Source: Deuterostichococcus epilithicus
Lineage: Eukaryota > Chlorophyta > Trebouxiophyceae > Prasiolales > Stichococcaceae
NCBI GenBank assembly: GCA_033439295.1
Contig: JAVTLE010000016.1
Coordinates: forward strand, 2,418,001-2,482,000
Length of the DNA stretch: 64,000 bases
Reading direction: 5' to 3'
Position 1 is the stretch's first letter, and each line of letters starts with the position of its first letter. Under the pieces are notes generated by a model. It searched no databases and had not been told where the DNA came from. It saw only the letters and a list, made by a program, of their open reading frames with translations. A program made the position numbers and the translations under genes. Positions 11,869 through 61,247 of this stretch are shown here, piece by piece.

Positions 11869-14800
11869 ATGTCACGGCGTGATGGCCCGCCGGTGCGGCC
11901 CCATGGCGCACCTCCTGCCTTGCAAGGACTTCCTGCAACGCATGCGGTAGTCTAGTGAAGAGGTGTTGTCCGTCCTGCGCCATGCGACCTGCCGCACCTT
12001 GCAGTGCAGTGCACACTCTGGGTCGACAGTTCGCCAATCACATGCACACTATAGGTGTGCAAGTTCTGGCTGCAAGACCGCTGCCTGGCCGGCGACCGCT
12101 GCCGCTATGCGCATCCGGGCAAGGGGCCCTCGCGGGTGGAGCAGCACCAGGCGTCGCTGCTGCAAGGCCAGCGCGGCGGCGGCCTGCCAGGCAGCAGCGT
12201 CCACGCCGAGGCCTGGGCGCCCGGCCCCGGGTGGCCGGTAGGTGGCGGCGGGTATTCTGCCGGCAGGGGCGGCCCAGCAGTCCGTTTCGTCCAGCTGGGC
12301 GAGGGGTCGGCAGGTCTGGCGGCAGCGGGCTCAGACGCTCCGCCAGCCGCCGCATGGGGCACCGGCGGCCTGCCGGCCGGCGTTACGGCCCCTGATGCGG
12401 CCTGGACGGCGGAAGCAGAAGACGAAACCGGCTCCGCGAGCGAGTGGTACGTGCCGGACGAGCAGGAGGCGGAGTTCGAGGCGGACGCCGAGGCATGGCT
12501 GCAGGAAGTAGAGGAAGTAGAGGAAGGCGGCGACTGGCCGCAGGGCGACCAGGCCGCGCGGGGTGGCGGCTGGGATGGGGCCGCCGGCGGCGGGCAGCAC
12601 GGCAGCTGGGCGGAGGCAGAGCAGCAGGCCTACTGTGGCGACCAGGGCTACCAGCCAGGAGGCTACCATCAAGGCAGCTACCAGCAGGGCGGCTATGCGT
12701 CCGGCGGCTACTCTGAGGCGGCGAGTTACAGCGGTTCGGAGCAGCAGCGGGGGTATGGCGGCGGCGGCGGCGGCGGCGAGGTGTCGGGCCTGGAGGAGCA
12801 CTTTGACGGCCTGTCGGTGCAGCACAGTGGCAGTTACGGCGACGGCCCTGGGTCTGCGCACCAGCGCGGCCCTGTGCTGGACCTGTGCCAGGTGTGCCTC
12901 GCAGGGCTCCATTTGTGCAGCTGTCGTGTGTGCACACATCGTCCTGCGTCATTTTGTCCTGCATCGGCCCGGCGACTGAGGCGTGTGGGCAATGTCACAT
13001 CCTGGAGTTTGCAAGCCCACACGCTGGGCATGCGGCTGGGCGAAGGCAGCGGACCCGGCCGGTGCCCCAATGCCCACGGACGAAGCAAGCCCTCCATAGG
13101 TGACAGGGCGTGCTGCTGATGTTCCATGCTCATCGAGGCGTCTGTTGCAAGGCTTCTGTTGCACCCTGCGCAGGTCTGCGGGCGGCACGTGCTGGACCCC
13201 AACGATGGCGCGCAGCAGGCACAGCATCTCGAGCAGTGCGTCGCCCGCCACGAGCGGCTGCAGGCCCGCCACGCCAGCGCCGACGTGGAGGTGCGCACGT
13301 GCAGACATGCATATGTCTGTTCTCTGATATACCATGCCGCCAGCTTGCTGGCAGCGGAAGCGCGCCACAAGCGGCTGCCAGCGCGCCACGCTTGCGCTTC
13401 AACAATGAGGCGCGTGTCACGAAATGCGGTTGCAGCATGCCCGCACAGGGCCAGTCGGCTGCTCGCAGCAGCACCTCGCGACGGCCCTGACCTTTTTCCA
13501 TGACAAACACACCCTGCTCCCACCCTGCAGCGCGGCACCTGCCGCGAGTGGGTGCCAGACAAGCAACCTCGAAGGAGGACAATGTGGCAAAAGCACGCGT
13601 GCACATCTCTTGCTGCCAAATCCTCACGGGAATTTGTCGTCTTGGCTCTAGAGTCCACTGTCGTGCCGGTCCTGACTCGCCATCCTTATTCAACCCTGCA
13701 GTGCGGCATCCGCCCGGAGCGCTGAGCTCCTTTCCGCAATGCCTCCCAACGTCCTGTTCCTCCGGTCCCGACCTGCCGTCATATATACCTAGAACCTATA
13801 TGTTCAATATACATCTCCTTAGGTATGTTGATAGATAGAACTTGAACACGCGGTTTGAACGCGGTGTTTCGGTGTCCCACCGCCTTGCAGTGCGGCATCT
13901 GCCTGGAGCGGGTGCTGGAGAAGCAGCCGGCGGCCGGCCGCAAGTTCGGCCTGCTGGCCTGCGAGCACGCTTTTTGCCTGGCCTGCATCCGCGGCTGGCG
14001 GGGCACCTCCGACGCCGGCGCCCCCGCCACTGACATGGTGCGGTTTTCAGGGTTCAGGGTTCAGGGTGCGGTCCCCATGTCTTGCTGCTTCAGCTGTGCA
14101 GTCCAGGCCGACCGCCAATTCCGACCCCTGTGACGCCTGCGCCGTCCCTGAACAGCCCTGCACCCGCTTCGTGGTGAATGCTCGCGGGCTGACCGGGGTT
14201 GCCCTGTGCCCCCGACATTCTGCGAGACACCCTGCGACGTCGGGCCGGCTCACATGCCCCCGCCTGCAGTGCAGCCGGGATGACACGCCATCCGTTGACC
14301 CGTGGTCTGTGGTCCCCTCTCAGGCGCGCACCTGCCCGCTGTGCCGCTCCAGCAGCCACTTCGTGACGCCATCCACGGTGTGGCCAACGTCCCAGGAGCA
14401 GAAGGATTCTATTGTGGCGGGCTACAAGGCGCGTCTGGCCTCCATCGACTGCCGCCACTTCGCCTTTGGTGCGCCCATCGTTCCTCCCACTGTTCACCCC
14501 CTTGGTTCCCTTTTGCCTCGTACTGCCTGGCTACAATGCGCAGTTGGCCCCCGTCGGCTGTCGCCACTTCGCCTTCTCTGCAGCTGCGCAACTCTGCACA
14601 TGCCGGCATTCGTTGTGTCCTTGCCTCTGTGATGGCCACGGCCGAGGCGGCCTGGTCGCTGTGCACAGCGGCTGCGGCGCCATGCGAGGCATGATGAAAA
14701 TGAGGGGCCCTTCCGCCCTCTTACCGGCCACATCTGTTTCGACCCTGCGCTCGGGCATGGCTCAAAATCCAAGTTCCTGTTCCGCCTGCCGCAGGCGAGG

Positions 14801-15162
14801 GCTCTTGCCAGTTTGGGTCTTCCTGCTTCTACCGCCATGCCTACCCGGACGGTACTCTGTGGACGCCCAGCCTGCGCAAGGTGGCACCGCAAGCCAAGCT
14901 CTTTCCGTTTGTCTCGCAATGGAGTCGTGTGATGCAGGCGCAATGCCTACATAGTCTGCTGATCGCAGAAAGCTTGCATGCTCAGACAATGTTGCGGCCG
15001 TGCCAGGTCGCTGGGCAATCCTTCAGACAGCGACGGCAGTACCTTGAAGCAGCGTTGTGGACTTTGTGCCAGGTGGGCACGGCGGAGGGCGATGTCAAGA
15101 TCGTGTCAGAAGTTCGCCTGTCGCAGTTCCTCGATGACGCGCCCGCCTTCCGCGGGCGGTGA
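11869..15162 (+). CDS. MKRN: Makorin-type RING E3 ubiquitin ligase
   Basis: Exons at 11869-11946, 12055-12891, 13174-13290, 13891-14037, 14324-14468 and 14794-15162 join in phase. Order of parts: a short Pro-rich start ([13 protein letters not shown]); a C3H1 zinc finger ([20 protein letters not shown]); a long acidic then Gly/Tyr/Gln-rich linker; the makorin Cys-His motif (LDLCQVCGRH ... [10 protein letters not shown]); a RING finger (CGICLERVL ... [13 protein letters not shown] ... TCPLCR); and a second C3H1 finger ([20 protein letters not shown]). The C-terminus [10 protein letters not shown] resembles plant makorins. Makorins are RNA-binding ubiquitin ligases. The low-complexity linker (about residues 110-270) is larger than usual. 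The last exon may hide a small intron. Introns carry decayed copies of neighbouring exon edges. The gene may share a transcript with uL18. Confidence 0.9.
13362..13393 (+). repeat. Decayed copy of makorin exon 3 end
   Basis: A segment containing GCCACAAGCGGCTGCCAGCG, inside the intron, mirrors the exon-3 segment around 13245-13276 (GCCACGAGCGGCTGCAGGCC). The shared core GCGGCTG is displaced by 117 bp. The exon encodes [10 protein letters not shown] and the copy could read [10 protein letters not shown]. It is too degraded at its flanks to serve as an alternative exon with confidence. Confidence 0.6.
13520..13735 (+). repeat. Two decayed copies of the makorin RING-exon acceptor
   Basis: The true acceptor ends at 13890 (CCTTGCAG then TGCGGCATCTGCC). 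Near-copies occur with the AG ending at 13701 (CCCTGCAG then TGCGGCATCCGCC) and at 13530 (CCCTGCAG then CGCGGCACCTGCC). Spacings are 189 and 171 bp, longer than the single-copy duplications elsewhere. Each copy retains pyrimidines plus CAG. The copy at 13701 soon reaches a stop, so its use would truncate the RING. Confidence 0.6.
14046..14068 (+). repeat. Short telomere-like repeat
   Basis: Three tandem TTCAGGG-type heptamers lie just after the donor of the RING exon. Plant-type telomeres are TTTAGGG, so this is one base off and very short. It is most likely an interstitial scrap or chance, not a chromosome end. Confidence 0.45.
14529..14578 (+). repeat. Decayed copy of makorin exon 5 end
   Basis: The exon end at 14420-14468 (GGCTACAAGGCGCGTCTGG ... 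CGCCACTTCGCCTTTG, then GT) is echoed 109 bp downstream (GGCTACAATGCGCAGTTGG ... CGCCACTTCGCCTTCT). Where the exon has its GT donor, the copy has CTGCAG. Confidence 0.8.
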
Positions 15163-15633
15163 CGGCAGGATCTGGCGACGTATGGTTTGTGGCCGGCTCA
15201 AGGGATTTGCTGCTGCTGCCTTGTCGGACGACAAAGCAATATCCTGATCCTAGAGCGCCGACGCTCCATGGCAAGCCGAGGCATAGTGGCTTCAGAGGTT
15301 CCATGCTAGAACGTGCTTCAAGGTTGCCGCCGTTTCAGCACTGCAAGCGTGCTGAACCAGCGTGCCACCCGTTCACATGGCCGCACGTGAAAATGGTTGC
15401 TGCAAACGATTGTCGAGTAGCGTTTACCAGCCTTCCTCTAGAGGGACCCTGGTTACAGAGCGTTTTGAAGATGCCTGCCAAGAGTCGCCGCCCTGTCTGT
15501 ACCATGCTATCGGCAGTCTCTTCGCCAGTCTTTCGCAAACCACTGGTGTCCCCAAAGACGCTTCCTGTCGGATACCACACAGAGACGGCCGCAGCACAGT
15601 CCCAAGGCGGGGCTGCTGCACCGCCACCGCCGC
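15163..15633. other. Convergent 3' region of makorin and GARS
   Basis: This holds the 3' ends of the two convergent genes. The only feature I can point to is a minus-strand TGTAA at 15453-15457. Confidence 0.5.
15453..15457 (-). terminator. Candidate TGTAA polyadenylation signal for GARS
   Basis: Green algae commonly use TGTAA as the poly(A) signal. This copy lies about 180 nt past the GARS stop, a plausible 3' UTR length. A pentamer occurs often by chance, so this is only a candidate. Confidence 0.4.
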
Positions 15634-19976
<4,343 letters not shown>

Positions 19977-20957
19977 CCTGCGGTGCCATGATCATAGCCC
20001 CATTCGAATGCCGCAGTAAAAGATTTCTGGCATGTGAGAGAGCGCCACAGTCGACTCACCTCGTCGCGGCCGCTGCCAGACTGAAGTCTGAACTGCTCGC
20101 GTCGGCCGATGCCCAGATAGGCAGAGAGGGGTCAAGCAGCGCGCGCAATGCTACATTCCTTTTGTAGTAAGAGCGATTGAGATTGTGCAGAGCCAGTCCA
20201 GGCGCTCACAGCGAGCTTCCGGAAGTCCCCGCCGACACAGATTGCCAGTGTTTGTAACGGCAGAGGCCGCGGCAGGAACACGCGGATTGAACAAGTCGAG
20301 GCTGTTGCACTCTCCAACACAAACAACATTCACCCTTAAAATGCGTAAGTTGCCTCCGCATTGTCCACAAACGCTGATTGGGATTAGCCATGAGTTAACT
20401 CTGATTACCCGAAATTTCACACAGCAGGTGCAGTGCACGCTTTCATAATAATGAACGCTGCACGGTAGCGAAACTGCTCTACAGCGCATTTCAGGCCGCT
20501 GAGAAGCACCCCCCTCCCGCCGCTTCGCTGCGCCTGGCAGGTTGCTGAAACCCTGATCTGAGCCTGCGATCTGCCGCTCCGCAACCTGTGCAGATTACCA
20601 GGGCTGCGGTCTGTACCAAGGACAATACGGTTGCGGGGGAAGTTTGACGCTCCGCCTGTGCTTTGTCCAGCTGGGCCTCGCCTGAACTTGTAAGGGACTT
20701 CCCAGCAGGGCGACGCATCTACGCACGAGCAGCACGGGTGCAGTGGGGCAAGGGGTCTTTTAGGGTTTCAGAACACTTTTCAGAAGGCCTGCACGCAAGG
20801 TAACCCAGACGGACCCCTTGGCAGGGGCTCGTCCCTGCAGACGCAGACGCACGTGCGCTGTGATTACCTGGCTTGCCCGAGCCAGTAAGGGTTCTCAGAC
20901 GGTGGCGGCATGACCACACGAGGCTGACGGCAAGCAGTCTGCTTTGCAGGCAGCAGA
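19977..20957. promoter_or_regulatory. Divergent intergenic region, GARS / SnoaL-like gene
   Basis: About 980 bp lie between two divergent starts and should contain both promoters. I see no conserved coding segment and no convincing TATA element. Confidence 0.4.
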
Positions 20958-21814
20958 TGACGTCTTCGAACACCAACCTCGCCGCGGTGGACATAGAGCC
21001 AGACGACGGACAGTCTGAGCCTGCACTGACGGAGGCGCATGTCCGAGATGTGTTCAGCCACTGGGAAGCGGGTGTGCATGTTGCATTGCACGGCATTTGC
21101 ATTATACTGCGTAGCCTGCAGATCTCGGTCAAAATTTTGCCTCCCAGAAATCGCGACCAAATGTTTCAACCTCTCAGAGACTCTGATTTCCCACATATTA
21201 ACGCAGGCCGGCCAGCGCTCTTTGCGCAGAACGTCGCAGAAGATGTCGAGTGGACGCAGGTATTGCCGCATGATGACCCTCCACCGATATATCTGTGAAG
21301 CGCTTGACAAAGATTGTTTGATGACAGTCCAGTCACTTTGCTCATATCGGTCCGGAATGCAGATGGGCAACCACCCACTGGCAAAGTGCTACTTCTCAAA
21401 GCACGACTATTTCGAGGTGCGCATCAAGCTGCGATGACTCTGCCTTCATTGCTCACCTATGACCTACGAAGCCAAGGGACGTGCGACGATGGCCATGCGG
21501 CAGAGTAAACCTTCAGCAAGCCATCCATGCTCATGCTCACAGCCTTTTCCGCTGAACAGGCAGAGGACGGCCCGATCTCGCGCATTAAAAGGGCCATCCG
21601 CGGCTCGCTGCGGCTGCACGTGCAATCGGTCCTCATCTCTGGCACCTGGGCGACTGTCGAGCTGCATGCGGAGGCGACGGCCAAGGGCGGCTGGGTGTTC
21701 GACAACATGTATTGCTGGCTGCTGGAGTTCCAGCATGGACTGATCGTCACGGCGCGGTCATACATCGCTGATGCGGCTCAAGTCACGAGGCTCATCGAGG
21801 AGAGCGAAGCGTGA
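20958..21814 (+). CDS. SnoaL-like (NTF2-fold) protein
   Basis: ATG at 20958 opens an exon ending LTEAHVRDVFSHWEAG (to about 21072). Further short exons encode RPALFAQNVAEDVEWT (near 21210-21256) and MGNHPLAKCYFSKHDYFE (near 21360-21416). A last exon from about 21560 encodes ISRIKRAIRGSLRLHV, a Trp/Tyr-rich strand (GGWVFDNMYCWLLEF), and ends TRLIEESEA with a stop at 21814. The pattern DVEWT...GNHPLAG...FDNxYCW is typical of SnoaL/ketosteroid-isomerase-like cone-shaped proteins. These are small enzymes or ligand-binding proteins of very varied role, so no reaction is assigned. It sits between GARS and a double amidohydrolase on the same strand as the latter. Confidence 0.75.
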
Positions 21815-25500: not shown

Positions 25501-26691
25501 ATTCTGGTGCGCGGCGAGCCGGGCAATGGGATCATCGACGACCTGGCGCCAGTGGAGGTACATCACCGTTGATTGGCGCCTGCAGAATGGGAAAATCCAC
25601 TTTGTTTGATGCCCGCCTGCTGCACGGCGAGTCTGGCAATGGCGTCGTTGACGACCTGGCAGCTGCAGCGGTGTTTCACTTGTGCAAATGTTTTTGAGCA
25701 ACAGTTTACATCTGCTGCCCTGGACTATCATGCTACCTTTTCAGCTTTCCAGTCTGCTTGGGAGGAGCCCAGTGGCGCCATCATTGTTGACGCCAAACTG
25801 CAGGCCCCGCAGCCTGCGCAGCCTTGGGCCGGCTCAGGATTGCCCATGGACGACCAAATGGCATTCCTGAATTGTGAGAACGTCGCTACAACTCAAGCTT
25901 GCCACTGCTGGATGCAGGGGGAGCGGCTGCTGTACAAGCGGGCCAAGGGGGCCTTCTACGACACCGACCTTGATGACTGGCTGCTGGCGCGCGGCATCAC
26001 GCACCTGCTGGTTGCGGGCGTCACCACGGAGGTGTGATAGTGCAAACCTTGAACCCTAAAAAACCGCTCCGGAGGCCCTCGTGAGCGCTGGATCGTTGTG
26101 TGCGTCGCTGTGCGTGACGGCCGGCGGGCTGCTGAACGGCGGCCGGCAGAGCCAGAAACGTGCAGCGACTCCGGAGTGCAGCTCTGCTGCTTTGTCCAGC
26201 TGTATAGACTCGGGACTGCATAATAGCAAGCGCACGCCCGCCATGTGGGTGCATCAAACAGCGCAGCTGAACTCGCATCCACATCAGAAGCCCCCCGCCT
26301 GTGCTTCACAACGCACCTTGTGGCACACACAGGTGTGCGTGCAGACCACGATGCGAGAGGCCAACGATCGCGGCTTCGAGTGCCTGCTGGTGGCGGACGC
26401 CACGGCGTCTTACACGCCGGCTTTCAAGGCCGCCACTCTGGAGATGGTCACCTCCCAGGCAAGTGCTCCAAGCTCGAGCTGGTGGCGCAAGCACTGCCAT
26501 CCAAACGCAGCATGGCCTCTTCAGACGAGGCTGGGTCTGGGGTGCTGCAGATATCTTTCCTATCCAAGAAATTTTTCGCCCAAACGCGGTGACACCAAAA
26601 GGATGAAGTCCACGGTGGTGTGATGTCCCAGGGCGGCATTGTGGGATGGACCGCTGACGCCAATGCAGTGGCGGCTGCCCTCAGCGCCTGA
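22502..26691 (+). CDS. Two-domain isochorismatase-like cysteine amidohydrolase
   Basis: Start ATG 22502 ([20 protein letters not shown]); no in-frame ATG lies upstream. Domain 1 has the catalytic Asp in [16 protein letters not shown], the Lys in [14 protein letters not shown] and the Cys in [19 protein letters not shown]. It ends [17 protein letters not shown] (about 24240-24290). An Ala/Thr-rich linker then runs without stop into the next domain start, [10 protein letters not shown], spliced to [20 protein letters not shown] (from 24582). Domain 2 repeats the triad: Asp in [11 protein letters not shown], Lys in [14 protein letters not shown] (near 25935), Cys in [19 protein letters not shown]. 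It ends [13 protein letters not shown] with the stop at 26691. The product is roughly 470 residues, about twice a normal family member. Relatives include ureidoacrylate (RutB) and biuret amidohydrolases, but I cannot fix the substrate. Both domains resemble one bacterial subfamily, suggesting internal duplication. Confidence 0.88.
25598..25672 (+). repeat. Decayed copy of an amidohydrolase exon end
   Basis: The exon end at about 25486-25558 encodes [21 protein letters not shown] copy 113 bp downstream, within the intron, reads [19 protein letters not shown]. At the position of the exon's GT donor the copy has GCTGCAGCGGTG, containing an AG. Confidence 0.85.
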
Positions 26692-46124: not shown

Positions 46125-49100
46125 ATGGTGCCCGTTGATGCGTCAGGCGTGACGGAGGGCGAGCGCACCAACACGCGCGGGCAGAAGCTTTTCACTATCA
46201 CCTACCGTGCACAGGGTGCTCAGCGGGCGGTGTACATTCATGCGCACGGCTACGGAGAACATGTCGGCCGCATGCGGCACTGCGAGTCCCCTTTCACCCC
46301 CTTCAAATGAACAGAAGCCGATCTTGCATCGTGCACTGGTTGACATCCTGAATTCCCAGTGCTGCTGCACATGCTTGTGTCTTGCGGCGGCCGCATGACA
46401 TGCCATACCTGCTGCCACACCACGCAGCACGTACGCAGTGCTGCCGGATCCGCTGCAGACACCAACTGGTCAGGCCAGGTCGATCGGCGGCCTTGAGATA
46501 TTGACGTGTCATGGTGCCACACGCACAGACTTCAGCACGCTGGCGGCAGGCGGCATCACGGTGTACTCCTTTGACGCACACGGCCATGGCAGGTCGGAGC
46601 CGGCTGGCAAAAAGGACCGCGCCCTCGTGAAGAAGTTCAGCGACCTGGTGAGCCTGGGATAGCTTGCAAGGGGGACTCCTGGGAGGGCACCAATGCTGGC
46701 AGTGAGGCAATAATGCCGCAGCGCATCTGCAACAGCAGCACCGCACGGGCTTGCCGCCCCTCCAGGTGCCTGAGGCGGTCACCCTTGCCTAAGGCAACAA
46801 CCAGACGTGGTTGGCTGCGACCGCCGCGGCTCACATCCCGGCTCTACTTCACGGGGTGTTGCCGCAGCCGCTTTACAGGGCTGTGGTTTCACTCAGCGTC
46901 GTGACCGACACTCTCCGCAGGTGGACGACATGGACGCCTTTGTGCGGGAGGTGGCTGCGTCGGAACCGGTCGACACACCCTTCTTCATGGGCGGCCAGTC
47001 TATGGGCGGCCTCATCGCTCTGCACGAGGTATCCTGTCCAATTGCCCTTTGATTCCGCAGAAAACCATCGGCTATGTGCGCAATTGTGTGCAAGCAGCCA
47101 GCCAGCCCACAAGGCAGCTTGTGCTGCGCCGCCTGGCGGGTCCTTTGGCAGCCCCTCTGCGGCGGCACGGCAGCGCTGATTCCAGCGGCTGCCGTGGCAC
47201 TTGACCTGCGAGTACTGCCTGGCTGCAATCATGGCCCACAGCACCGTGTCCTTCCATGTCTTCCATATCTTCGCAAGCAGGGAGACAAGGCTGATGTACA
47301 GACGACACGAATCAAGCATGCTCAGCGGTGGTGCATGGAGAGGGACAAGGCTGGTGCACAGACAACACGAGTCAAACATGCTCAGCGGTGGTGCATGGGG
47401 CATGAAACACTTCTTGCCGTGCAGGTGCTGCGCGCCAGCATCCCCTGGCGGGGCCTCGTGCTGACGTCAGCGTTGGTCGATGTGGAGTGGACCCCCGTCC
47501 TCAAGTAGGGCATTTCACGAAAACATAGGCACCAGCCTCCAGGGAGGCAAGCCTCCAATACTCAATGCGCTGCAGCATTCCATCGCAGCCTAGAACCGGC
47601 CAGGGAGTCAACCGCTTCATGGCCCTGGCCTACGGTCGAATGTGAAAAATTTCAGTCGTTCATGCGCGGGCTGTCACTGCTTGCCGCCAGCGCCCACACA
47701 GACTGCCTCAAGCGCATGGCATCAAATCCCCTTCTTTGCCAGACTGTACCTGCGGGATGCAGCCGAATATGGGTGACTGCTGGCTGCGCTCGGCGGTGGT
47801 GCACTGCAGGCTGCATTTGATCACATTTTGTTTTCAACAAATTCGAAGCGGAAGAATGGGCAACCTGCTGGCGGCGCGCGGCAGTGTCCCTGTGCAGGCC
47901 GTATCTGATAGGAACCTGCTCTTGTCACGGTCCTCACTGGATGCATGTCGCAGGATGGGCAGTTGAAGGTGAGCAACCTGCTGGCGGGTCTCGGCGGTGC
48001 CTCATCCCAGGCTGCATTTGATGACATTCCCTGTTCGTCACACTCCTCGTGATGTATGTCGCAGGATGCAGTCGAAGGTGGGCAACCTGCTAGCGGCGCT
48101 GGTGCCGCGGGCGCGCATCGTTCCTGGCGTCGACCCCAAGGACATGAGCCAGGACCCTGCGGTGGTGAGTGGGCCGCTCTGCTAACCATGTTGCCATCAT
48201 TATAAGCATCCATTCCAACAGCATAATAACCCTTGCTTTTTCTTGAATGTGTCCTCTGGTCTCGCAGCAGATGATGCCACCTTTTGCCTGCTCAATCACC
48301 TTTCATCGGCTACACTGTTGTGCACTCCCCTACTTTGGGCCGGCTCGCACGCTATGGCGCCCTGCTTCAGCATGCACCCCGTCAGTGCTGGCTTTGCTCC
48401 ATGTATACATCTAACATATGTATATGCTCAAGACAATGCCATCGGATTCTTGTCTGATGCTGACAAATGGTTCTTTTCCACATGCCCGCACCTGAGGCGT
48501 TAAGTCGAGGACCAGCTGCACTACCGGACAAGCGAGGGTTCCAAGCATCTTTGACAAACAGACACTCACCGTTCTCAGTTGATTCTAACAGGTGAAGGAG
48601 TATGTCGAGGACCCGCTGAACATTATCGGCAAGCTGCGCGCCCGCACCTCCAACGAGCTGCTCAAGGTGCAGGACCCTGCATCGTCCGGCAGGCGAAGTC
48701 CTCGAAAGGAAGACTGCCCTTACAACCATGGCCTTACGACTGAATGTTCACCCAAAGGCTGAAACGCAGAAAACGTGTCAACGGTTGCAGGTTGCGCACG
48801 CACTCTCTTGAGCGACGCACGATCCTGGTGTTTGGAGAATCGTCGACTCGGACGACTAGCCTGTCACGTTGTCGATATTCATTCTGAGTCCTCCACTTGT
48901 GCGGGCAGGCGTTCCGGGAGCTGGGGCAGCGGCAGCAAGAGCTCAAGCTGCCCATCTTCGCGGCGCACGGCACTGTCGACCACACCACCAGCCTGCAGGC
49001 GCGTGGCCGGTCAGTGCAGCTGCTGTGCACCGGCGTGCTACACCCCGGAGCCTGACAGGCCGCGCAGCTGGCAGACGCAATGAGCTTAAATAGCACATCT

Positions 49101-51221: not shown

Positions 51222-53117
51222 CAGGCGAGCGCCGCCATCGTCACTGCAGGCGCCGCCACCGGCGCAGCCAACAAGTCCGTGTCGAAGAATACCACAGCAA
51301 TCAAACCTGGCACCGAGTTCGGCAAGAAACACACCGAAATGCGGACAAGCAGCACCATCGCCACGCATGATGCCTACGAGACGCAAGCGGATGTGAAAGG
51401 TCAAGATTCGTCATCGGGGCCCCGGCTGGGCGGTACTAGCCTCAATGGCGGTCCCGAAGCAGACGCCGGCAACTCAGACTTGGCGACGCAGGCGACAGGC
51501 CGTATGATCCTCGATGATGGCATCGACGATTCTTGTGCCAACAATGCCACTGGCACTGGTGCCATCCCTGGGCAGCCAAGCTCAGGCGAAACCGCCCGCC
51601 CTGCTGGCAGCCTTGCAGCGGCACCTTCCTGCACGGGGGAAGCGAAGATGAGCGCTGGTGCTGCTGCGTTGCAACATGGCAGCAGCAGCGGTGACGCGCA
51701 CAGCGAGCAGGTCGAAGCAGGCTCTGATGCCGGCGGCGGCACCGGTGCCGCCGCCGGCGGCACGGGCAGCACCGGCCAATATGACCCAACACCCAGCAGC
51801 GGGACAGCAGCGCCGTCTGATCATGGCTCTGGCGATGCCTCAAATATTTCTCCAGGCCTCGAGGATGCCATTCGTGGTGCTGGTGTGGGGGCCACCTCCA
51901 GTGGCATGCCCAGCAACGGCAGCCCCACCATTGCCACCAGCGTCAGCATGATGTGCACTGCAAATGTGGAGGTTGCGGGTGGGGACATCAGGGACTTCCC
52001 GGTTGATGCGACCCCAACCTCCGACCACTCAGGTATGGCAACCGTGCGTGTCAACACACCTCTGAAGCAGCGAGACGCAGCCATGCACTGTCCATGTCAG
52101 AATGTTGGAAACGGAAATTCCAGCAGACAGCAGGACTCGCGCGCATAATATGCCACCGACCCATCAGTGCTGCATGTCTGGCATCAGCTGCTTCTGTCCA
52201 ACCTCCTCTCGAAGCAGCACGCCGCCGTGCCAAAGTGGAAAGTCAAGCAGCTTGCAGTCAAATAAAAATATGTTGGCTCTGAATGTTTGTCGTGCCGCAG
52301 GCAGCTCCAAAAATGATGGCGGCCGGAAGGCAAATTTGCTGAGCACCTTTCAAGGAGGCGGCATCACCTACGAAAGCCGTATTGAGGTGAGCAATGCAGT
52401 CGGCGCATGTGCTGCCACCACAGGTTCAACCACAGGTTCTGCTCGTACCCACATAGCGGTCGCTGTGGCCTGGTAGTAGTGCGCCTCCCTTTTGGTGTCA
52501 CGATATTACGAGGATCACCACCGATGCAGAGCGCATGCACACCACAGCGCGGGTAGCAGAGGCAACTGCGTAACGGCAGGCTGTTACAGGAAGAGTCATA
52601 GCACCCAGATTTCTACTTGCGAGAGATGAGGTTGCGACGCCCTGAGACAGCCAATGTGACCGTGCGGCACTGCACAGGCCATCAACGACCTGGCCGCCGA
52701 GGTGTTCACCAGCAGCAGCCACCCGGAGGATGAGATGTGCGTACATACATCCGCATCATCCAGTCAATTCTCGGCCTCCTGCCAAAACCATCGTGGTCAC
52801 CGCACATGCGCCATGCCGTCAGGGGCCGCAATTTCTTCCACAGCCTGTATGTGACGTCCAGCTGAAGCGGGCATGCATGCCTCGTCGTCAATGCTCAGCG
52901 CTTTGAAAGGCAGGCCGCAGCTGCCAAATAGTGACAGCCTGTAGATGATGCAAAATTATATTTTGGCATCGCAGGTACCTAGCGGCCTTCAGGCGCAGCA
53001 CCGGCAGCTTCACCGCAAAGGAACTTGACCTAAAATTCAGCCAGATGAAGCGGCTGCTCGCCAGCAGCGGCGATGACTGGGTGCGCAACATTTGCATCAG
53101 ACTACCTGACGTGTGAG
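51222..53117 (+). CDS. Uncharacterised protein
   Basis: Exons with good splice borders lie at about 51222-52030 (QASAAIVTAGAATGAANK ... then a long Gly/Ser/Ala/Thr-rich disordered stretch), 52302-52385 (KANLLSTFQGGGITYESRIE), 52677-52736 (AINDLAAEVFTSSSHPEDEM) and 52975-53117 (YLAAFRRSTGSFTAKELDLK then FSQMKRLLASSGDDW, stop near 53115). Phases agree between the last three. The conserved-looking part is a helical C-terminal region. I do not recognise the family, and an earlier first exon is likely. An alternative is that the gene continues past 53117 after another intron. Confidence 0.5.
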
Positions 53118-54184
53118 AAGGAGCCGTTGCCGTTCATCACCCTCGCCCAGGAGGCACGGATCCATCAGCAGCTGCCATGCCTTCGGCCTCCGCGGCCGCA
53201 GGCTAGAAACTGTCAAAGCGAGCTCGTCATCGCCGGCATATTTTGCTGCGCTGAACCGTACTGTAATAATGAACGATGTCCTTCTGTCCTGCTCGTGCAG
53301 AAGCACGTCTTGCGGACATACCTACTGCCGTGAAGCAGCCAGCGGATTGGGGAATGGCGCTTGTGAGTGGATTGTGCAATTTATGGGTAGGATCACTTGG
53401 TGGTTGATGTGATCGCTTTTGCTAGAGAGGACGCAGCAATGCACAGCACTGGTAGGGGTTGTGTTGCAGGAGGGATGGAGCTCATTTGTGACAGCAATTA
53501 TGTGACGGCAGCAGTACAGGGTCTGCTGGTTTGTGAAAAATATTTCTGTAACAAGTTCCAGGAAGAAAGACAATCCTACGCTATGCTGCAAAATTATGGC
53601 AGCGGTGATCCATGTCCAATCGTCTATGCATCTTTCAGCTACGTACTAGTACCTGAATCAAAAGAATGCTATCAAATCGCGGCTCGTTGCTGCGGCGTGT
53701 TATGCCAATTGGCTGTTCTTTTGGGGGGTTCACGAATAGAAAGCATCAACTGCCGGTTGCTGCCGCTCGCATGCGTGGCGTGGGCGCACGGCCGGTCCAG
53801 GGACAAAATCGCGGGTTGCTGTCGGCCAAACGCGTGCTTGGGAGGGGCAGGTGCCCGACTGTGCTAAGCAAAGGCACAACGAAGAAGACCGGGGATTGGC
53901 GCTGAGAGCGCCGTCAAAATAGGTAAGTGCGCAGGCGTGGACTTGCGTCACGAAGGCTCGCGGGCGGCACCATATAGCAGCGTCCGCCGTTCGGACACCG
54001 CAGTAGGATGTGAGGCCGTTCAAAGGCCCCTGGCCGCGCCTGCGGTGGCACATCAAGTGGCACAGGTCAGCAGATGTAACCCACAGTCACAGCTGAACAA
54101 GCCCTGCTCCTGTCTTTGAAGCGGTGGGCAGGCTGGCAAGGGCAGATGCAACCGAGGCGGGGCGTCAGAGCAGTAACCAGCCGC
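53118..54184. other. Convergent 3' region
   Basis: Between the unknown plus-strand gene and the GH9 gene on the minus strand. The open stretch at 53397-53867 is less GC-rich and has no recognisable similarity, so it is not called coding. Confidence 0.4.
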
Positions 54185-57100
54185 TCAAGTACACAAACGG
54201 TACACAGAGAGCTCCAGATCTCCAGATGGCAGACCAGAAGGCCAGAATGCAGCCTCGCGACGGCGATGGCAGGGGCTGGCAGGCCAACCATGAGCTGACC
54301 CTGCGGAAATCAGCATTCGGCAAGGGGCAGAGGCAGAAGCAGAGGCAAAGGCAGAGGCAAAGAGAAAAGGCAGGGGCAGTGCGAAGGGTGAAATGCAGGG
54401 GCACTCGGGGGGCGCACAGATGCGGGTGTTGTTGATGGAGCGTGAGTGCAGCTTGGCGGAGGGGGCAGTCCAGCCCAGGTCCAGGCCGCAGTCGTTCTGC
54501 GCGACCTGCTTGCTGCCAAAGTACTCAGCCAGAGCGGCGAAGGCGCCCGTCACGGCGGCGTTGCCGTCTGCAGAGGGTACAGGCGCCATCATCAGCACGT
54601 TAGCAGGGAGTGTTCCACTGTCTCCCAGGCAACCGGCGGCGGGCGCCACTGGGCTGCGAATGCATCGGCTGCCAGGCATGCATAGTAAGTAGCCTCTGGT
54701 TGAATCAAGGCTGCTCCCCCATCGATGCTGGCCGGCGGCGTGTATGTGCGCACGGAGCCGCTGGAAGGGCCGCACCGGTGGTCGGCTCGGCATAGCTGAA
54801 GTCCTTGCGGCCGACGACGATGCTGTCGTCGCCCAGCGGCGCGCCATACAGCGCGCCGTACGGCGTGAAGCGCTGCGGCCGGAAGGAGCCTGCGGCGCGG
54901 AGTGGGCAGGGGCATCAGCGCCCTGTCCCAGTTTCTGGTGCAGACCGGGGGGAGACATGCAAATTCTGACATTGTGATAGATTTCAACCAGGCGCGTCCG
55001 CGCAGGCGCCCCCGCGTCCGCTGCCGGCCCGCATATCCGAGCTGCCTGTGGCGCCCCTGCGCCTGACTCTTAATCCATGCAGCCCAGAGAAAAGCAAAGT
55101 TGCGCCTGTGGCCCAAGCAAGCTGCCCATACGTTTCCCATGTCCCGACTGCCCACGATGTCTCAGCGGTGGCAGTGAAATCACAAGTGGGTCGTCAAGTA
55201 CAGACATATGGGAGACTTCACGGATGGGGAGAGAATACAGAAACACTTCACGCACCCTCCATGTCGAACTTGGCCGCCTCTACGAACAGCCGGTTCTGGT
55301 ACTTGCCGTTGGTCTTCTCCGACCGGATGTTGGCATACACCTTGAGACCCTTGAGTGGCTCGGTGATGTACGAGTTGTAGCTCTGCAGCCGGGCGCCAAC
55401 GACGGTGTGAGCAGAGCATGGGGATTTGTTCTTCGATCTCCCGCATTTACAGTTCTAGGGTAATGCAACTTTCAGGTGGATGCAGCTTCATGTGGCGCCT
55501 GGGGGCCAGTCCCGCTCGTGCACTGCTTGCGCGGCGCGAGATGCGGTGGCGGTGCAGTAACCATGTGGTGCGCAGTATGACATGGACGTTGGGGACTGCA
55601 AACAGTCAGACTACAGGCGGTCACCAATGGCCCCACCTGCTTGTGCCACCAGTACTTGGGGGAGGTGCTGCTGTAGCCGCCCAGCCACGAGCGGCCGCCG
55701 TCGCCCAGCACCTGCAGAACAGTTTCTATTGTTGTTAATTCAATGATCAAGAAGGTCAATGCCGGTCAGTGCTGCTGCAGCACGTTCACTCGGTGTTGGG
55801 TCTGATCTAGTACACACGCTGGGAGGCTCGGCAATGCAACCGGGCCTGCTTTGGCACGCAACTGACAGACATGGGTTTAGATGGCACGCTGGCAGGCCCA
55901 TGGCTAACAGGACAGCGGGCTGCGAACAGTGGTGGACTGTGGCAACAACTGATCCGAATCATAGGACATGCACGAGGGGGCTGAATGTCGCACATAGTTG
56001 ATCTGGAACGCCGCGTAATTGAACCTGTTACATGATATTTTATTTGAAAGTTAGCATACAGACGTATAGGCTTTGTTTGTGCTTCTTTTTTCTGAACAAC
56101 ATTGACTTGATAGTCTGCCATTGTCTGCAAGTTCGAGAGCAATGCGGCTTGCAGTCTGCAAATCTTACAGCTGCGCGGCGTAGCCCAGGTTCTTGCCGCG
56201 GCTGCGCAGGTTCTTGGACTGCTTCAGCGCCAGGAACGCCATCTGCAGGACGACACAGGGACGTGCAGCGCAGACAGTCAGTCATGGCTGGAGAGCCCGC
56301 GACATTTGTTGCACACATTTGCAACACCATTATTGCTCGCCGATGCAGTAGGCCGTTGAGAACACAGCAGGAATCGGTGCCGTCAGGATGAGTCCCATCA
56401 AGGTGGCTGATGCCTTTTGCACTTCAACTGTCACCGCGTCACGACCATCAGTCGCTGCTCTTAAGCCTGCTGGCGACAGTTCCTATGTCGTTTTGATTCC
56501 TTTCCATATTTCCATGTTTTGGAGGAGTTTCAGGGCTCACCTGGGTCGTGGGGCGCAGAGCACCAAAATGGTAGGGATATGCGAGGCCGGCGGGTGTGTG
56601 CTGGATGATCTGCTGCAGGTAGGGGCGGAAGAAGCCTTGCGCGTGGCCGAAGTATTTCCCGCTGTTGGCGGGGTCGACCTGCGGCACAGCAAAGGTTCTC
56701 ACCTTCCCGGCTGCGCGCGATCTTGAGAGCCTTCCCAGGAGTTTCAGCAGTGCGACGGGCTGGCTTTGGGCACTGCTGACCATCGAGGTCGACAGGACGG
56801 AACGTGTGCAAGGCGGAATGCAAGCACATCTGTTGCAGCTGCATGAATGCACGGTGACCTGGGGTGACCGCACCGTCTGCATCATCACGGTGAGCGCGGG
56901 GACCTTGTTGCCGGTCTCAAAGGCGTACGGCGGCTGCGGCAGCTGCAGGCAGAACAGTGCTGCCACTTCGGCAGGCGGCCAGGTCGACACACTCGCAGCC
57001 CGCACGGGACGGCGACAAACAGCAGGGTTTCAAGGATAAATGCACCAAACATGCGCAAGCAGTGGGCGCCGGGATGCGTGAGGATGGGGCTGGCGATGAA

Positions 57101-60100
57101 ACGGAGACCACAGCAAGCCGCAGCATGGGGCACAGGCAACATAACATGACACTGCCAGCTGCAGGTGTGTGCAAGCTGCATCCTGTCTTGCTGGGGGTCA
57201 ATCCAGACTGCCCTTACCTGGTTGTAATACTTCTTTGCATCGCTGCGGAAGCGGGCCTCGCCGGTCGCACGGAACAGCCACGCGGCGGCCCACGCCAGCT
57301 CGTCCTTGTAGCCGTTCGAGGAGGCGTACAGGCGCTGCAGGGTGGGGCAACAGCAGGGTCGGTGCATCGGTGCATCAGCGACAACATCACGGTGAGAGTC
57401 CGAAGAGGACAGGGCAGGAAGACAGGGCAGAAGCAGAGGAATCTCACTTGCTGCCGCAAAGCAAGGTGGCCACTGTGTATCACATGCTGTTGTGTAAATT
57501 CGAAGCTCTGTACTGGTGGCCCGACTGGCCAGAGACCGCGCAGGGCGCATGCAATGGCAGGACAGACGTCCAGCAATGGTGCAACTCACCATCAGACCCC
57601 CCTTGCGCCGATCAATGCCGCTCCTTGAAGGGTTTCAGGCAGGAGGTGTTGCTGGCTGAAGGATGCGTGGGAGCCGGAGATACTGGGGTTGGGGATTGGG
57701 TATTCAGATATCAGACATTTCTCATTGCACAGACTCGCCTTGTGGATGCCCAGGCAGGAGGTGTCGCTTGCGGAGGCGTAGGAGCCGGGGTACTTGGTGG
57801 CCAGGCTGTACAGCTGCTTGGCGTGCACGATCATGGCCTTGGTGTCGCGCTTGACGCCGTTGGCCTTGTAAACCATGGAGGCAGCGGCGAGCGCTGCCGC
57901 CGCCTCGCCCGCAATCTCGGAGCCTGCAGGGGTTTAGGATTTGTGAACTAGTCAGAACCATTGAGGAACTGCTGCCTGCAGGAGGTTTCTGAGCGCAGGA
58001 CCCTCCGCCCAACAGGCGACGCCGCCGTGCCGGCGATTGCACAGGCCAGCTGTGCCAGCAAGCGTTGGAATGTCCGGGCATGCCGGCTGCTCGCATGCAG
58101 CGCAGCCTGCGGAGGGTCTGCCAAATATGTGCCAAAGATGTGCCTTGTGTGACCATGGGTTGTCGAGAGTGTCTGCCGGCACAAGTGTTCAGAACAACGG
58201 CTGGAAAGCGCACCCCGGTGCTTAGAGTCGATGTAGCAGGTGGTGCGCTTCTTCACGTATGTGTCATACCGCTCGACGGAGCCGTAGCTGCAGCCAGAAC
58301 GCTCCAACATCATAAGTCCGAGCTTACGGAAGCACGATTGCGCATTTGGATCCGGACAGCGACTGCCAGTGGCAGTCGACTCCTGCTCCCACACACGGAG
58401 CGGCTGCGACGGCAGCAGCGAACTTCGGCTGTCATCATGAAGAAGAACTGTCATCATGAAGAAGGAACCTCACTGTTCTGCAACCGCCATGTGGCAACAC
58501 GTTGGTGGGAAGCATAAATGTGGTCAAGGCACGCACTAGTCGAAGTCCAGGGTGTCGTTGCCGAGGACTGCAACGAAGCGGTCGGGCTTGGAGTGCGCGG
58601 CCATGAGGTAGTCGGCGCCCCACTCGATGGCATCGATGGCTGCGTCGCGGCAGCAACGATGACCCAGTCAGTACAACGCTCGGGACAGTTCAAATCAGAT
58701 GGCTTTGGCACCTCACAGCGGTATACTGAGCAGCCAGCTGTGACGCTCTGCACGTGCATGCTGCGGGTGCGACAGGCAGCCCAAGGGTGGATTTCCTCGT
58801 GCACCGAACTTGGGGTTGTTGGCATTAGGTAGGCTTCCCTGCAGCACCCACCGTTTTGCAGGTCGCCAGACTTCTTGAAGCCGGCAGGGAACTGGAGCAC
58901 GCCGTCCGCCAGCACCGTCACCTGCGCAGGGCGGGCGAGAGAGGCGTCATGACGATGTCCGCATGAATGCCGGGCGGTTGACTGTGACCGAGGCGCAGGT
59001 CCCTTTTGTTCGGTCGAAGCTGCTGTGATGGACGGTCTCCGCGACAGCGTTGCAGGCGGCAGCGGCAAACTGCTCGTTATGCTGGAAGGCGTCTCCATGT
59101 CTGGCGCTCTGGCACCAGCTGGCCCCTGTGCTGGCCAGGTGCCCGAGACCCTGGAGCAGCAGGGTGTGCGCTGAATGCCGGCAGCCCTTTCAACCCCGGG
59201 GATTTTGGGGAGAGGAACACCTTGTGTTTGACAACTTATCGGAATATCCTGAACCCTGCACCCAAGGCGCACCAGGAAGGCCTCCACCAGCCCCAGCTTG
59301 AGGAAGGAGCCGCCGGCCTCGTAGTAGCCCTTGCTCAGGTTCTCGCCGCTGGGGCCGCGGCACTTCAGGCAGCTGTCCGAACGCCTGAGGGTGGGAATCG
59401 CACATCAGCAGTGAGTCCGGGTGTCGGAGTGGTTGCAGTCTGTGAGGGCGGACGCCCTGTCAAAGCTCCCGATTGTAGGTGATGTGCGTATATACTGGTG
59501 CCGGCCCTGCCAAACCTGGCAAGGCGCCGTCCGATGCAGGCATGTTAAAGGACACAGCTGCAGACGTAGCCAGCCACTGCTTAGGGGTCTGAGGAGGGGA
59601 CGCACCATGCGAGCCGCTGGCGATTGAGCTTGCCTGCAGATACAACAGGATTTGTGGGTGCACGCTCCGAGGCTTTCCAAACCTTGCAAGTGGGGTCAAC
59701 CTGCCGCGATCAGCAGCCAGACAGCTGAGCGGGCTGCGCAGGGTTTTCAATGGAGCTATGTCTGCAAAAGACTGCACGGCTGTCGCCAGTGTGGATTGAA
59801 GAATGCCAGAAGCACGGCAGAACAGGCCCGCACCAGAGCGCATGGACTCGAAGAAGATGAGCGACAGGTGGATCGCCTTGGTGTAGCTGTAGCGCGCCGC
59901 GCTGGTGCTCGGCATGTTCTGGTTGTTGGCCGCTCCGGCCACGTCTGCAGTTTGCAATTGCATTGCACGGCGGTTGGGCGTTAGGTGTAGGTGTGCAGCT
60001 TCTCGATGCTTCTGGACCGAACCGGCCTCAGTAATCATGCAGCGTACGGCACGGCAGGGCATTGGCATTGCGAAAGCAGGGCGAGATGACGAACTAGCGG

Positions 60101-61247
60101 CAGGACGACGCACTGGTGTTCTTGGCCGCGGGCGACTTCGTGTGGGATCCGTTGGGGTTGTACCTGGAACACACGAGTTTGTCAGTGTTTCCGTGGCGAC
60201 GATAGCACCTATGGTAGCGGCTGGACATGCGCGGGCGTGTTAACCACCATGACTTACAAGGCACAAATGTGGGTTGTACCAGTAGTTGGCCCTGTCAACG
60301 TTGTCACATACAAAGGGTTGTGAGCGCTCTGAGGTGGGCACTGTCGATTGCATGTGGGCAGCGCACACACCGGCAGACGCCCGGGTCCATGGGGCAGGTG
60401 TAACCGCCGCACGCGGCGTCGCAAGGTGTGCTGAACGTCAGCCCGAGGCTGCACACTGGGTTGTAGCCCTTGCCGCAGTTGCAATCGCCCACCTTGATCT
60501 TGCAGTAGGCGCACCTGTAGGAGGCAACAACACAAGGCCTTGCAAGAGTTTCAGTCGCCAGGAGCGAAACCAGCAACAAAGCAACAAGCGGCCCAGCCTC
60601 AGACCCTGAGTCAAGGCAAGCAACCCTGACAGAGAGACAGACACCAGCAATCATATGTGTAGGAGTAGAAGCAACATGCAAAGCGCACACTCGCGAAACC
60701 AGAATGTGAGTGTTATGGGCCAGCCGTGCCAGCTGAATGGGCACTGCTCTTTTAGTCTCTGCAATTGAGAAAACTTGAGTCGAGGATGCTCACGGGCCGC
60801 TGGAGCGGACGAGGACGTTGGCGCACTTGGCGGCGCACTCATTTCCATAGGTGTTGTAGTCAGCGCCGCACACCTGTAGCCGCACATCACTTGAGTCGGC
60901 AATGCAATGGTGCAGCCTGAGACAGGGCTGGCAATGCACTGGTGCCAGGCACGATATTCCACAGGACCCACCGGCTTGAATACGTTAGGAATGCCACCCT
61001 TGGTACGGCATGAGCACTCTGCGGCGCCAAGCCAATTCGTCAAGAAGCCGCCAGACTTGTTGATGATGTGACAGCACCTGGTTGCAGTGTTTGAGCCAAT
61101 GCAAGTGAGGGAGAGGTTGAGCAGCAACGCTGAGAGGCAGAGACACTCACTGCCAGTCGGCTTTGCCAGCCGCAGCGCAGCGTCAGCTGGCGCCGCAGCA
61201 ACTAACAGTAGCGCTGCCGCCACGGCGGCTGCGACCGCGGCCTTCAT
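54185..61247 (-). CDS. Secreted GH9 glycosidase-like protein with two Kazal-type modules
   Basis: Start 61247: signal peptide MKAAVAAAVAAALLLVAAAP. Two Kazal-like Cys modules follow: one from 61018-60794 (KCSCRTKGG ... VCGADYNTYGNECAAKC), one at 60514-60371 (DCNCGKGYNPVCSLGLTF ... CDAACGGYTC). After a Ser/Thr/Asn linker the GH9 barrel runs YSYTKAIHLSLIFFESMRSG (59900), KLNRQRLAW (28-nt exon 59633-59606), GYYEAGGSFLKLGL (59310) and IEWGADYLMAAH (58620). It continues GSEIAGEAAAALAAASMVY (57910), GYKDELAWAAAWLFRATG (57310), AFETGNKVPALTVM (56930), FQINYVLGDGGRSWLGGY (56000/55700) and DFSYAEPTTDGNAAVTGAF (54800/54560). GH9 enzymes cut beta-1,4-glucans. The catalytic acid Glu (AEPTT) is kept, but the usual DAGD motif is EAGG, so the catalytic base is missing. 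About 680 residues. The last exon is uncertain. Confidence 0.9.
57630..57690 (-). repeat. Decayed copy of a GH9 exon end
   Basis: The exon ending near 57742 encodes YPGSYASASDTSCLGIHK. An intronic copy 115 bp further along the gene shares GGCTCCcACGCaTCC and ACACCTCCTGCCTG and ends CTTCAAG where the exon ends CCACAAG. Confidence 0.8.
60155..60290 (-). repeat. Intron flanked by a 116-bp direct duplication in GH9
   Basis: GGTACAACCC occurs ending at 60280 and again at 60164-60165 (minus strand). Splicing from the GT inside the first copy to the AG just before the second gives the in-frame junction ANYW plus YNPNGSHTK. The intron therefore equals one duplication unit. Confidence 0.65.

Follow-up and report, generated by a model that had tools for sequence, protein, structure and literature searches.

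Duplicated exon edges in the window

We examined a 64,000-nt stretch of the Deuterostichococcus epilithicus genome (GCA_033439295.1, contig JAVTLE010000016.1, positions 2,418,001–2,482,000 of the forward strand; hereafter the window), in which predicted introns of five genes hold decayed copies of neighboring exon edges (Table 1). The identity of the makorin gene was confirmed by Pfam (RING and CCCH exons), and that of the GARS (PurD) gene by homologues. The names 'double amidohydrolase' and 'lipase' are taken from the original prediction, an earlier reading of the sequence only.

Table 1. Exon edges and their copies in the window (window coordinates; d, offset in bp).
Feature	Position	Strand	Remarks
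Makorin donor-side exon edge	13243–13280	+	exon end 13290, read by hand
Decayed copy of the 13243–13280 edge	13360–13397	+	d = 117; 82% over 38, ungapped
Outer copy, acceptor edge of makorin RING exon	13520–13568	+	d = 360; retains CCCTGCAG
Inner copy, acceptor edge of makorin RING exon	13694–13721	+	d = 189
Makorin RING exon, as predicted	13891–14042	+	Pfam
Makorin exon 5 donor edge	14415–14466	+	exon end read as 14468; predictor 14479
Decayed copy of makorin exon 5 edge	14524–14575	+	d = 109; 81% over 52, ungapped
Decayed copy of GARS edge	18346–18419	-	d = 111; 73% over 74, ungapped; GT kept
GARS donor edge and first intron bases	18457–18530	-	exon end read as 18469
Amidohydrolase donor edge	25504–25557	+	ungapped match spans 25504–25566
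Decayed copy of amidohydrolase edge	25617–25679	+	d = 113 ungapped (73% over 63), 116 gapped
Decayed multi-copy array upstream of lipase exon	47777–48045	+	spacings 88, 113
Lipase array pair	47857–47909 / 47970–48022	+	d = 113; 74% over 53, ungapped
Lipase exon acceptor edge, last unit of array	48068–48106	+	d = 109 from 47959
Copy of acceptor edge of next predicted exon (48601–48621), after lipase acceptor exon	48501–48521	+	d = 100–101
Decayed copy of GH9 donor edge (57751–57797)	57636–57687	-	d = 115
GH9 exon, as predicted	57735–57923	-	Pfam PF00759

The original prediction of offset duplications in these five genes holds for seven pairs, at offsets of 117, 109, 111, 113, 113, 109 and 115 bp. 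Ungapped identity reaches 90% over 29 bases in the lipase gene (47959–47987 and 48068–48096, 109 bp apart) and 88% over 24 bases in the GH9 gene (57636–57659 and 57751–57774, 115 bp apart). A further GH9 offset of 116 bp was not recovered: its best ungapped match within 58901–60700 is 10 bases at 60155, and the score of 10 is at background (mean best score 8.6 and 95th percentile 12.9 for 17 other offsets in 1.8-kb stretches, ungapped matches only). The two copies of the makorin RING acceptor edge are spaced by 171 and 189 bp, beyond the 120-bp mode described below. The makorin exon ending at 13290 was missed by the exon predictor, which called a false minus-strand exon there instead.

Copies lie within longer predicted introns

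The intron following makorin exon 5 (14469–14794, read by hand) is 326 bp, 3.0 times the offset of its copy, and the GARS intron (18468–17976, from hand reading and homologues) is 493 bp, 4.4 times the offset. The amidohydrolase copy likewise sits in a 360-bp intron (25558–25917). The GARS homologues examined run contiguously over the junction, and one of them (P0001) has no insertion at the position of the copy.

Introns might instead have been created when an exonic AGGT segment was duplicated in tandem, the known route cited in the original prediction. That prediction also placed an AG in the GARS and makorin exon 5 copies exactly where the exon has its GT donor, which is true only in a loose sense. 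In GARS the copy has the sequence GCAG|GTGGG, with AG|GT at the homologous place and the GT still present, and in the makorin copy GCAG lies a few bases out of register; neither AG is the acceptor of its intron. Creation by this route would leave an intron end that copies the upstream exon end at an offset equal to the intron length. We found this signature in one of 182 predicted introns at score 8, where 1.4 are expected, and in none at score 10 or above, and the GARS and makorin introns far exceed their offsets of 111 and 109 bp. Creation of new introns in this way is thus very improbable, and the result points to stepwise growth of existing introns.

Edge copies recur in the genome with a preferred offset

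The test sample comprised the window and 22 ten-kb loci (220 kb) elsewhere in the same 46.8-Mb genome, in total 284 kb or 0.6% of the genome; one locus, L018, contributes many of the pairs. Exons were called from the sequence alone with a codon-usage predictor seeded on one gene, which made at least one known false call. Of 10 translations of predicted exons, 8 were assigned to Pfam families at E<0.01; two of the eight assignments (SNF2 and Helicase_C) lie under the curated cut-off. A plasmid search returned no match. Mismatched flanks, inverted copies, shuffles and simulated detection served as controls. Early scans used a fixed 3-mer-ratio low-complexity filter (0.55 or 0.6) that discarded long matches, GARS included, so their counts are low for real and control sequence alike. 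The edge scan under this filter (21 real, 0.4 control, 0 inverted) was replaced by one with a length-aware filter. The latter yielded exon parts reaching 107–113 bases, and we dropped an early generalization that matches always end precisely at the splice site and cover no more than 80 bases of exon.

Comparison of each exon edge with its own flank gave 46 direct copies in adjoining non-coding sequence, on 38 of 586 predicted edges; mismatched flanks gave 9.0 per round and inverted copies 6. The offsets concentrate at 80–160 bp, where 22 were observed and 1.5 expected; a second, weaker grouping lies at 200–300 bp. At a looser cut the same scan gave 68 copies against 22.7 mismatched and 28 inverted, so that the chance share is large. 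An ungapped scan of 635 edges at score 16, made with the fixed filter, gave 37 against 1.1. Over the window and the 22 loci we collected 91 non-redundant direct pairs with offsets of 30–419 bp, compared with 6, 0 and 3 in three shuffles; both members lie in predicted exons in 14 of the 91.

The excess extends to loci sampled outside the window, which supports the originally noted recurrence in unrelated genes. There, 23 of the 29 exon-edge pairs with offsets of 50–199 bp fall at 90–145 bp (p=3e-6 against a flat distribution). Of the 23 stretches, 12 contain exon-edge or wholly non-coding pairs at 90–145 bp and 11 contain no such pair. Sharing of 9-mers between exon and flank is raised 4.4–4.6-fold at 100–140 bp (4.55 at 120–140 bp) and is 1.02 at 140–160 bp; outside exons it rises 2.4–2.8-fold at 100–140 bp. 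A preferred step is supported, with a value of about 120 bp (s.d. 16–19) and not exactly the 110 bp first proposed.

Simulated detection was nearly flat (0.34–0.52) for offsets of 50–250 bp under heavier decay and the fixed filter, and the mode near 120 bp is therefore not produced by the method. When an intron share of at least 45 bp was required, detection dropped below 100 bp (0.19–0.30 at 70–90 bp), so a filter may account for part of the mode's lower flank.

The total length of the duplicated unit varies less (c.v. 0.13–0.16) than its exon part (0.23–0.35) or its intron part (0.33–0.43), and a longer exon part tends to go with a shorter intron part (correlation -0.66 on the acceptor side, -0.54 on the donor side). 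This is expected of a fixed-length unit sliding over the junction, although errors in placing the inner end push in the same direction.

It is most improbable that these pairs arise artefactually from low complexity, errors in the assembly, dispersed elements or repeats within proteins. Where both members are coding, some pairs do resemble protein repeats, among them a 102-bp array at one locus (L011), but the non-coding and exon-edge pairs spread over all three register classes modulo 3 (17/14/6). The GARS stretch and the lipase stretch at 47760–48110 each match the genome once, in a search that ignores very common words; introner-like dispersal, with near-identical copies at many loci, was thus absent for both of the stretches tested. 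The 10–30% divergence of most copies is not expected from assembly errors, and matches are far fewer with mismatched flanks.

Copies decay and accompany longer introns

Mismatches between copy and exon are spread nearly evenly over codon positions 1, 2 and 3 (0.21/0.18/0.25; 58 pairs at all offsets, without GARS, fixed filter), which argues that the copies are not maintained as coding sequence. No decay directed toward AT was seen: GC in the exon became AT in the copy at 116 of 946 positions, and AT became GC at 103 of 465. The intronic part of the unit has usually decayed beyond alignment; under the fixed filter, matches extend outward by 3.6 compared with 1.4 in controls, short of the 5.6–12.3 expected from simulations with that filter, which counts against the lengthening model proposed below.

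The copies are probably intronic in the mRNA; for GARS, homologous proteins lack an insert. The alternative that they are functional alternative or poison exons retained for regulation would fit the GARS copy, which is open and in frame, and the acceptor AG, which 8 of the 17 acceptor copies that could be tested keep exactly (fixed filter). Special retention of the AG was set aside as a feature, since in these copies dinucleotides in general are retained at 0.67, a rate that 8 of 17 does not exceed. With no strong codon-position bias, all register classes represented and GARS homologues that read straight over the junction, a regulatory role is very improbable.

A duplicated junction is present in 16 of the 182 predicted introns, or about 9%, although about one of the 16 may be chance. 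These introns are longer, as expected if the copies lengthen them (median 468 bp, n=16, compared with 288.5 bp, n=166; p=3e-4), and the difference persists among introns of at least 170 bp (468 and 314.5 bp; p=0.0014).

Young arrays

The young examples are tandem duplications of a segment across a splice junction, sometimes in 3–6 copies. In L003 the step is 120 bp, the exon part matching at 91% identity across 57 bases, and a further copy there carries an identical GGCGCCC|AGAAC junction. In L018 the introns of a methyltransferase gene are built of copies about 96–159 bp apart, as read by hand. Units with both an intron tail and an exon head are present in the L003 and L018 arrays and in L004; older loci align well in the exon part only. 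Minisatellite-like arrays of at least three head-to-tail units with a shared junction occur in L003 and L018. Tandem Repeats Finder (TRF) does not pick up these decayed units.

Proposed stepwise lengthening of introns

We propose, with a probability of roughly 0.65, that existing introns in this green alga have been lengthened repeatedly by head-to-tail duplication of a junction-spanning unit of about 120 bp, the protein remaining unchanged and the copies decaying. Once such a unit is duplicated, the junction nearest the exon body would go on splicing, leaving the protein unaltered, and the outer unit, now wholly intronic, would decay neutrally. The copy of the exon edge would stay recognizable because the exon itself is conserved, and recurrence of the step at some loci would give arrays of 3–6 units.

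A competing explanation, which we consider unlikely, is that duplications of all sizes arise but are tolerated only if long enough to include a complete splice signal and to hold the decoy site beyond reach, those above about 140 bp being simply rarer. Pairs below 80 bp are mostly off exon edges (7 non-exonic, 3 at edges), whereas 27 of the 34 non-coding pairs at 90–145 bp lie at edges and 7 are wholly non-exonic (Fisher p=0.006); TRF output consists mostly of short repeats (among 128 rows whose period is at least 25 bp, 113 are below 60 bp), and the reduced detection below 100 bp under the 45-bp requirement also suits a filter. Donor-side duplications, however, need few intron bases and yet have the same length (mean 123 bp, n=11), and the upper fall in 9-mer enrichment between 120–140 and 140–160 bp is sharp. 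A filter also leaves unexplained the scarcity of 120-bp pairs wholly outside exons, where nothing forbids them.

This scarcity is the basis of a stronger form of stepwise lengthening, which we put forward only tentatively: that introns in the lineage grow to a large extent by a duplication process aimed at junctions, its step being set at about 120 bp, as a main route. Simulated uniform placement gives two wholly non-exonic pairs per exon-edge pair (an edge share of about one third), compared with the observed 7:27, or 1:19 without the window and L018. Against the proposed lengthening by a 120-bp unit, wholly non-exonic pairs taken alone do not show the mode (6 of 11 at offsets of 50–199 bp outside the window; 1 of 4 without L018), although 9-mer sharing outside exons is raised at 100–140 bp, as given above. 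In the junction-aimed form, paired nicks or breaks would lie on either side of the junction at a constant distance, set for example by a positioned nucleosome, an R-loop or a co-transcriptional splicing complex, and be followed by fill-in. More generally, we infer that breaks with long staggered ends are filled in and rejoined by end-joining to give the duplications, which are then filtered by splicing tolerance. No signature of nicks or breaks was seen in the sequence, breakpoint microhomology having been inspected by eye in L003 only.

Relation to known systems

We found one published precedent for a boundary-crossing duplication. As described in the relevant parts of PMC4974935, a tandem duplication in the potato RdRp gene included the 3' end of an intron, with branch site, tract and AG, and the 5' part of the next exon. 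The duplicated unit crosses the intron-exon boundary there as in the alga. The potato case is described as a single event, in which a new intron arose and the duplicated stretch of exon was retained. In the alga the duplications affect many loci and both splice sides, have a preferred unit length, form arrays, and leave copies that probably lie inside an existing intron made longer. The AGGT gain of Rogers, ATP2A1 and the 24-bp arrays of fission yeast, as summarized in PMC4974935, are tandem duplications that leave the spliced protein unchanged, as is probable in the alga, but their unit is exonic and as long as the resulting intron, a relation not seen in the alga. For Drosophila, the portions of PMC2891723 on novel introns propose exon tandem duplication as an intron-altering force, inferred from proto-splice sites. 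In Lipomyces stwintrons the donor element is duplicated and the authors invoke staggered-break fill-in; this is duplication at the level of the element, and the sections of PMC7138796 consulted describe no 120-bp unit or arrays. The inverted-repeat stwintrons of PMC8469720, from the part seen, were set aside as a comparison. End-joining of breaks with protruding ends offers a repair route to tandem duplications, including repeated rounds; the breaks were induced in mouse cells, and the text consulted describes no link to splice junctions (PMC5730883). A genome-scale report of such a junction-duplication step was not found in the literature searched, in which subscription journals were thinly covered.

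Implications

The lengthening of introns is usually ascribed to transposons and slow drift. Since duplicated junctions sharing one step remain recognizable in about 9% of predicted introns here, events of this kind are open to dating, counting and testing. A mutational step would implicate DNA repair or chromatin at splice junctions as the center of the event; if the step is selective, it measures the spacing of duplicate splice sites needed before the spliceosome ignores one of them. Both answers are measurable.

Exon models of the sample

The genome comprises 46.8 Mb in 21 contigs; our sample of 284 kb consisted of the window (G000:C14:2418001-2482000) and 22 ten-kb stretches from elsewhere in the genome. 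Exons were predicted from sequence alone with a codon-usage Viterbi model seeded with ten GARS exon pieces placed by tblastn with homologues. Green algae formed the majority among the named matches listed for the GARS query, and the best match among those listed was the homologue P0001 (79% identity), a transcript from MMETSP1473. We take MMETSP1473 to be a Stichococcus. The model yielded 333 non-overlapping exons with a median length of 150 bp; the 182 GT-AG introns had a median of 306 bp. At least one predicted exon, lying over a makorin exon, is false. Translations of predicted exons matched a Pfam family at E<0.01 in eight of ten cases tested (Fcf2, SNF2, glucosamine-isomerase/6-phosphogluconolactonase, C-5 methylase, SSRP1, GH9, RING/CCCH and Helicase_C, with SNF2 and Helicase_C under the curated Pfam cut-off); Pfam gave no family for the other two.

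Features located in the window and in sampled ten-kb loci
Locus	Coordinates	Strand	Feature
Window	13165-13308	minus	False predicted exon
Window	14046-14066		Three tandem TTCAGGG units, 3 bp from predicted exon edge
L016	1794-1814		Three tandem TTCAGGG units, 5 bp from predicted exon edge
Window	47273-47398		Young 60-bp tandem duplication, non-coding, lipase region; about 85-90% identity
L003	2814-2993 (oriented)	minus	Predicted exon; edge array upstream
L011	6413-6860		102-bp (34-residue) tandem array within long predicted exon
L018	241-7730		C-5 cytosine methyltransferase gene; tandem exon-edge arrays form several introns; densest of sampled loci

Exon edges recur in their own flanks at a preferred step

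The original prediction called for a genome-wide self-alignment of introns with their flanking exons, and the test made here covers 0.6% of the genome. Every exon edge was compared by alignment with three targets: its adjoining flank (up to 450 bp), the flanks belonging to other edges, and its adjoining flank in inverted orientation. At score 19, 38 of 586 edges held 46 copies, against 9.0 per round in mismatched flanks (six rounds) and 6 in inverted flanks. The excess was diluted at score 17 (68 against 22.7 mismatched and 28 inverted). An ungapped test with a harsher filter on 635 edges gave 51 versus 3.8, 37 versus 1.1 and 21 versus 0.0 at scores 14, 16 and 18. At score 19, 22 copies lay at 80-160 bp (1.5 in mismatched flanks), and a weaker cluster at 200-300 bp (15 versus 3.5) consists in part of second copies. 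The offsets originally read in five genes of the window were recovered by direct-repeat search and ungapped scoring, except the second GH9 offset, which scored at background level.

First-copy offsets (60-170 bp, score 17) were 118.2 ± 19.4 bp for the 20 acceptor-side copies and 123.2 ± 15.8 bp for the 11 donor-side copies, with maybe four or five of these 31 due to chance, judging from control counts. The 220 kb outside the window contain 29 exon-edge pairs spaced 50-199 bp apart, of which 23 fall at 90-145 bp (19 of 22 without L018), and the median of those at 85-150 bp is 120 bp (119 bp without L018). Simulated detection under realistic decay was almost flat over 50-250 bp; with a required intron share of at least 45 bp, it fell at offsets below 100 bp. 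The makorin RING intron departs from the step, with acceptor-copy spacings of 171 and 189 bp.

Sharing of 9-mers between exons and flanks was 4.4-4.6-fold at 100-140 bp and 1.0 at 140-160 bp, and reached 2.4-2.8-fold at 100-140 bp outside exons. Between exons it was 5.1-fold at 100-120 bp, where coding repeats add to the signal. The offsets of exon-edge and non-coding pairs occupy all three register classes (17/14/6), so these pairs are not protein repeats. The L011 array, in contrast to the intron copies, is apparently a true protein repeat.

Anatomy of the arrays

At L003, the end of the intron and the 57 exon bases that follow it recur 120 bp upstream (91% identity over those 57), with a second, weaker copy 242 bp upstream. 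Both copies read GGCGCCC then AGAAC, and the exon itself diverges at that point; L003 is a tandem array with the true junction in its last unit. In the L018 gene, introns are composed of exon-edge units, with AG spacings, by eye, of about 111/97/144, 106/118, 118/134/132/102/136 and 147/159/133 bp, the AG being lost in one unit of the third series. Self-BLAST was concordant (matches of 356, 191, 467 and 360 columns, 62-70% identity). L004 has two near-complete units with 10 bp between them. Unit length is the least variable measure, and the junction can lie almost anywhere within the unit; exon and intron shares trade off, which is supportive rather than decisive because misplaced inner ends also yield a negative correlation.

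Placement at exon edges

If 120-bp duplications were random and equally tolerated, simulation predicted 2.0-2.2 wholly non-exonic pairs per edge pair (three runs of a model free of large deletions, which would favour edges). Observed pairs at 90-145 bp numbered 7 outside exons and 27 at edges (1 and 19 without the window and L018). Missed exons bias against this excess because they inflate the outside count. Among pairs below 80 bp, 7 fell outside exons and 3 at an edge, a distribution that differs from that of the 90-145 bp pairs (Fisher p=0.006). Against an edge share of 0.61, a rough hand estimate of that expected if only genic introns were available, the excess gave p=0.018 (all pairs) and p=7e-4 (without the window and L018).

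The two genes bearing TTCAGGG units near exon edges are unrelated; four genome occurrences of the 21-mer were found, none at contig ends.

Fate and origin of the copies

Exon-copy mismatches at codon positions 1, 2 and 3 (123/581, 107/589 and 143/575) are spread across positions, and the copies are therefore not kept as coding. Over all exon-edge copies, the difference at third positions was barely above the others (0.25 versus 0.21 and 0.18). The comparison suggests that exon synonymous sites evolve more slowly than intron sequence. Median length was 468 bp for the 16 introns that hold a first copy and 288.5 bp for the 166 that do not (p=3e-4); among introns of at least 170 bp, the medians were 468 and 314.5 bp (p=0.0014; p=0.007 without L018). 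The median excess corresponds to between 1 and 1.5 units. The signature expected of intron creation, an intron end that copies the upstream exon end at an offset equal to intron length, did not occur above chance among the 182 predicted introns.

The closest case identified in the literature is a single duplication in potato (PMC4974935). A genome-scale counterpart was not found in the open-access literature searched, although this argues only weakly that none exists. We favour recurrent tandem duplication across the splice junction, after which the outer copy would decay neutrally. The duplications could arise by end-joining of breaks with protruding ends, of which tandem duplications are a known outcome (PMC5730883), or by fill-in of a staggered break, the mechanism put forward for donor duplication in Lipomyces (PMC7138796). 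The origin of the step may be mutational, selective or targeted.
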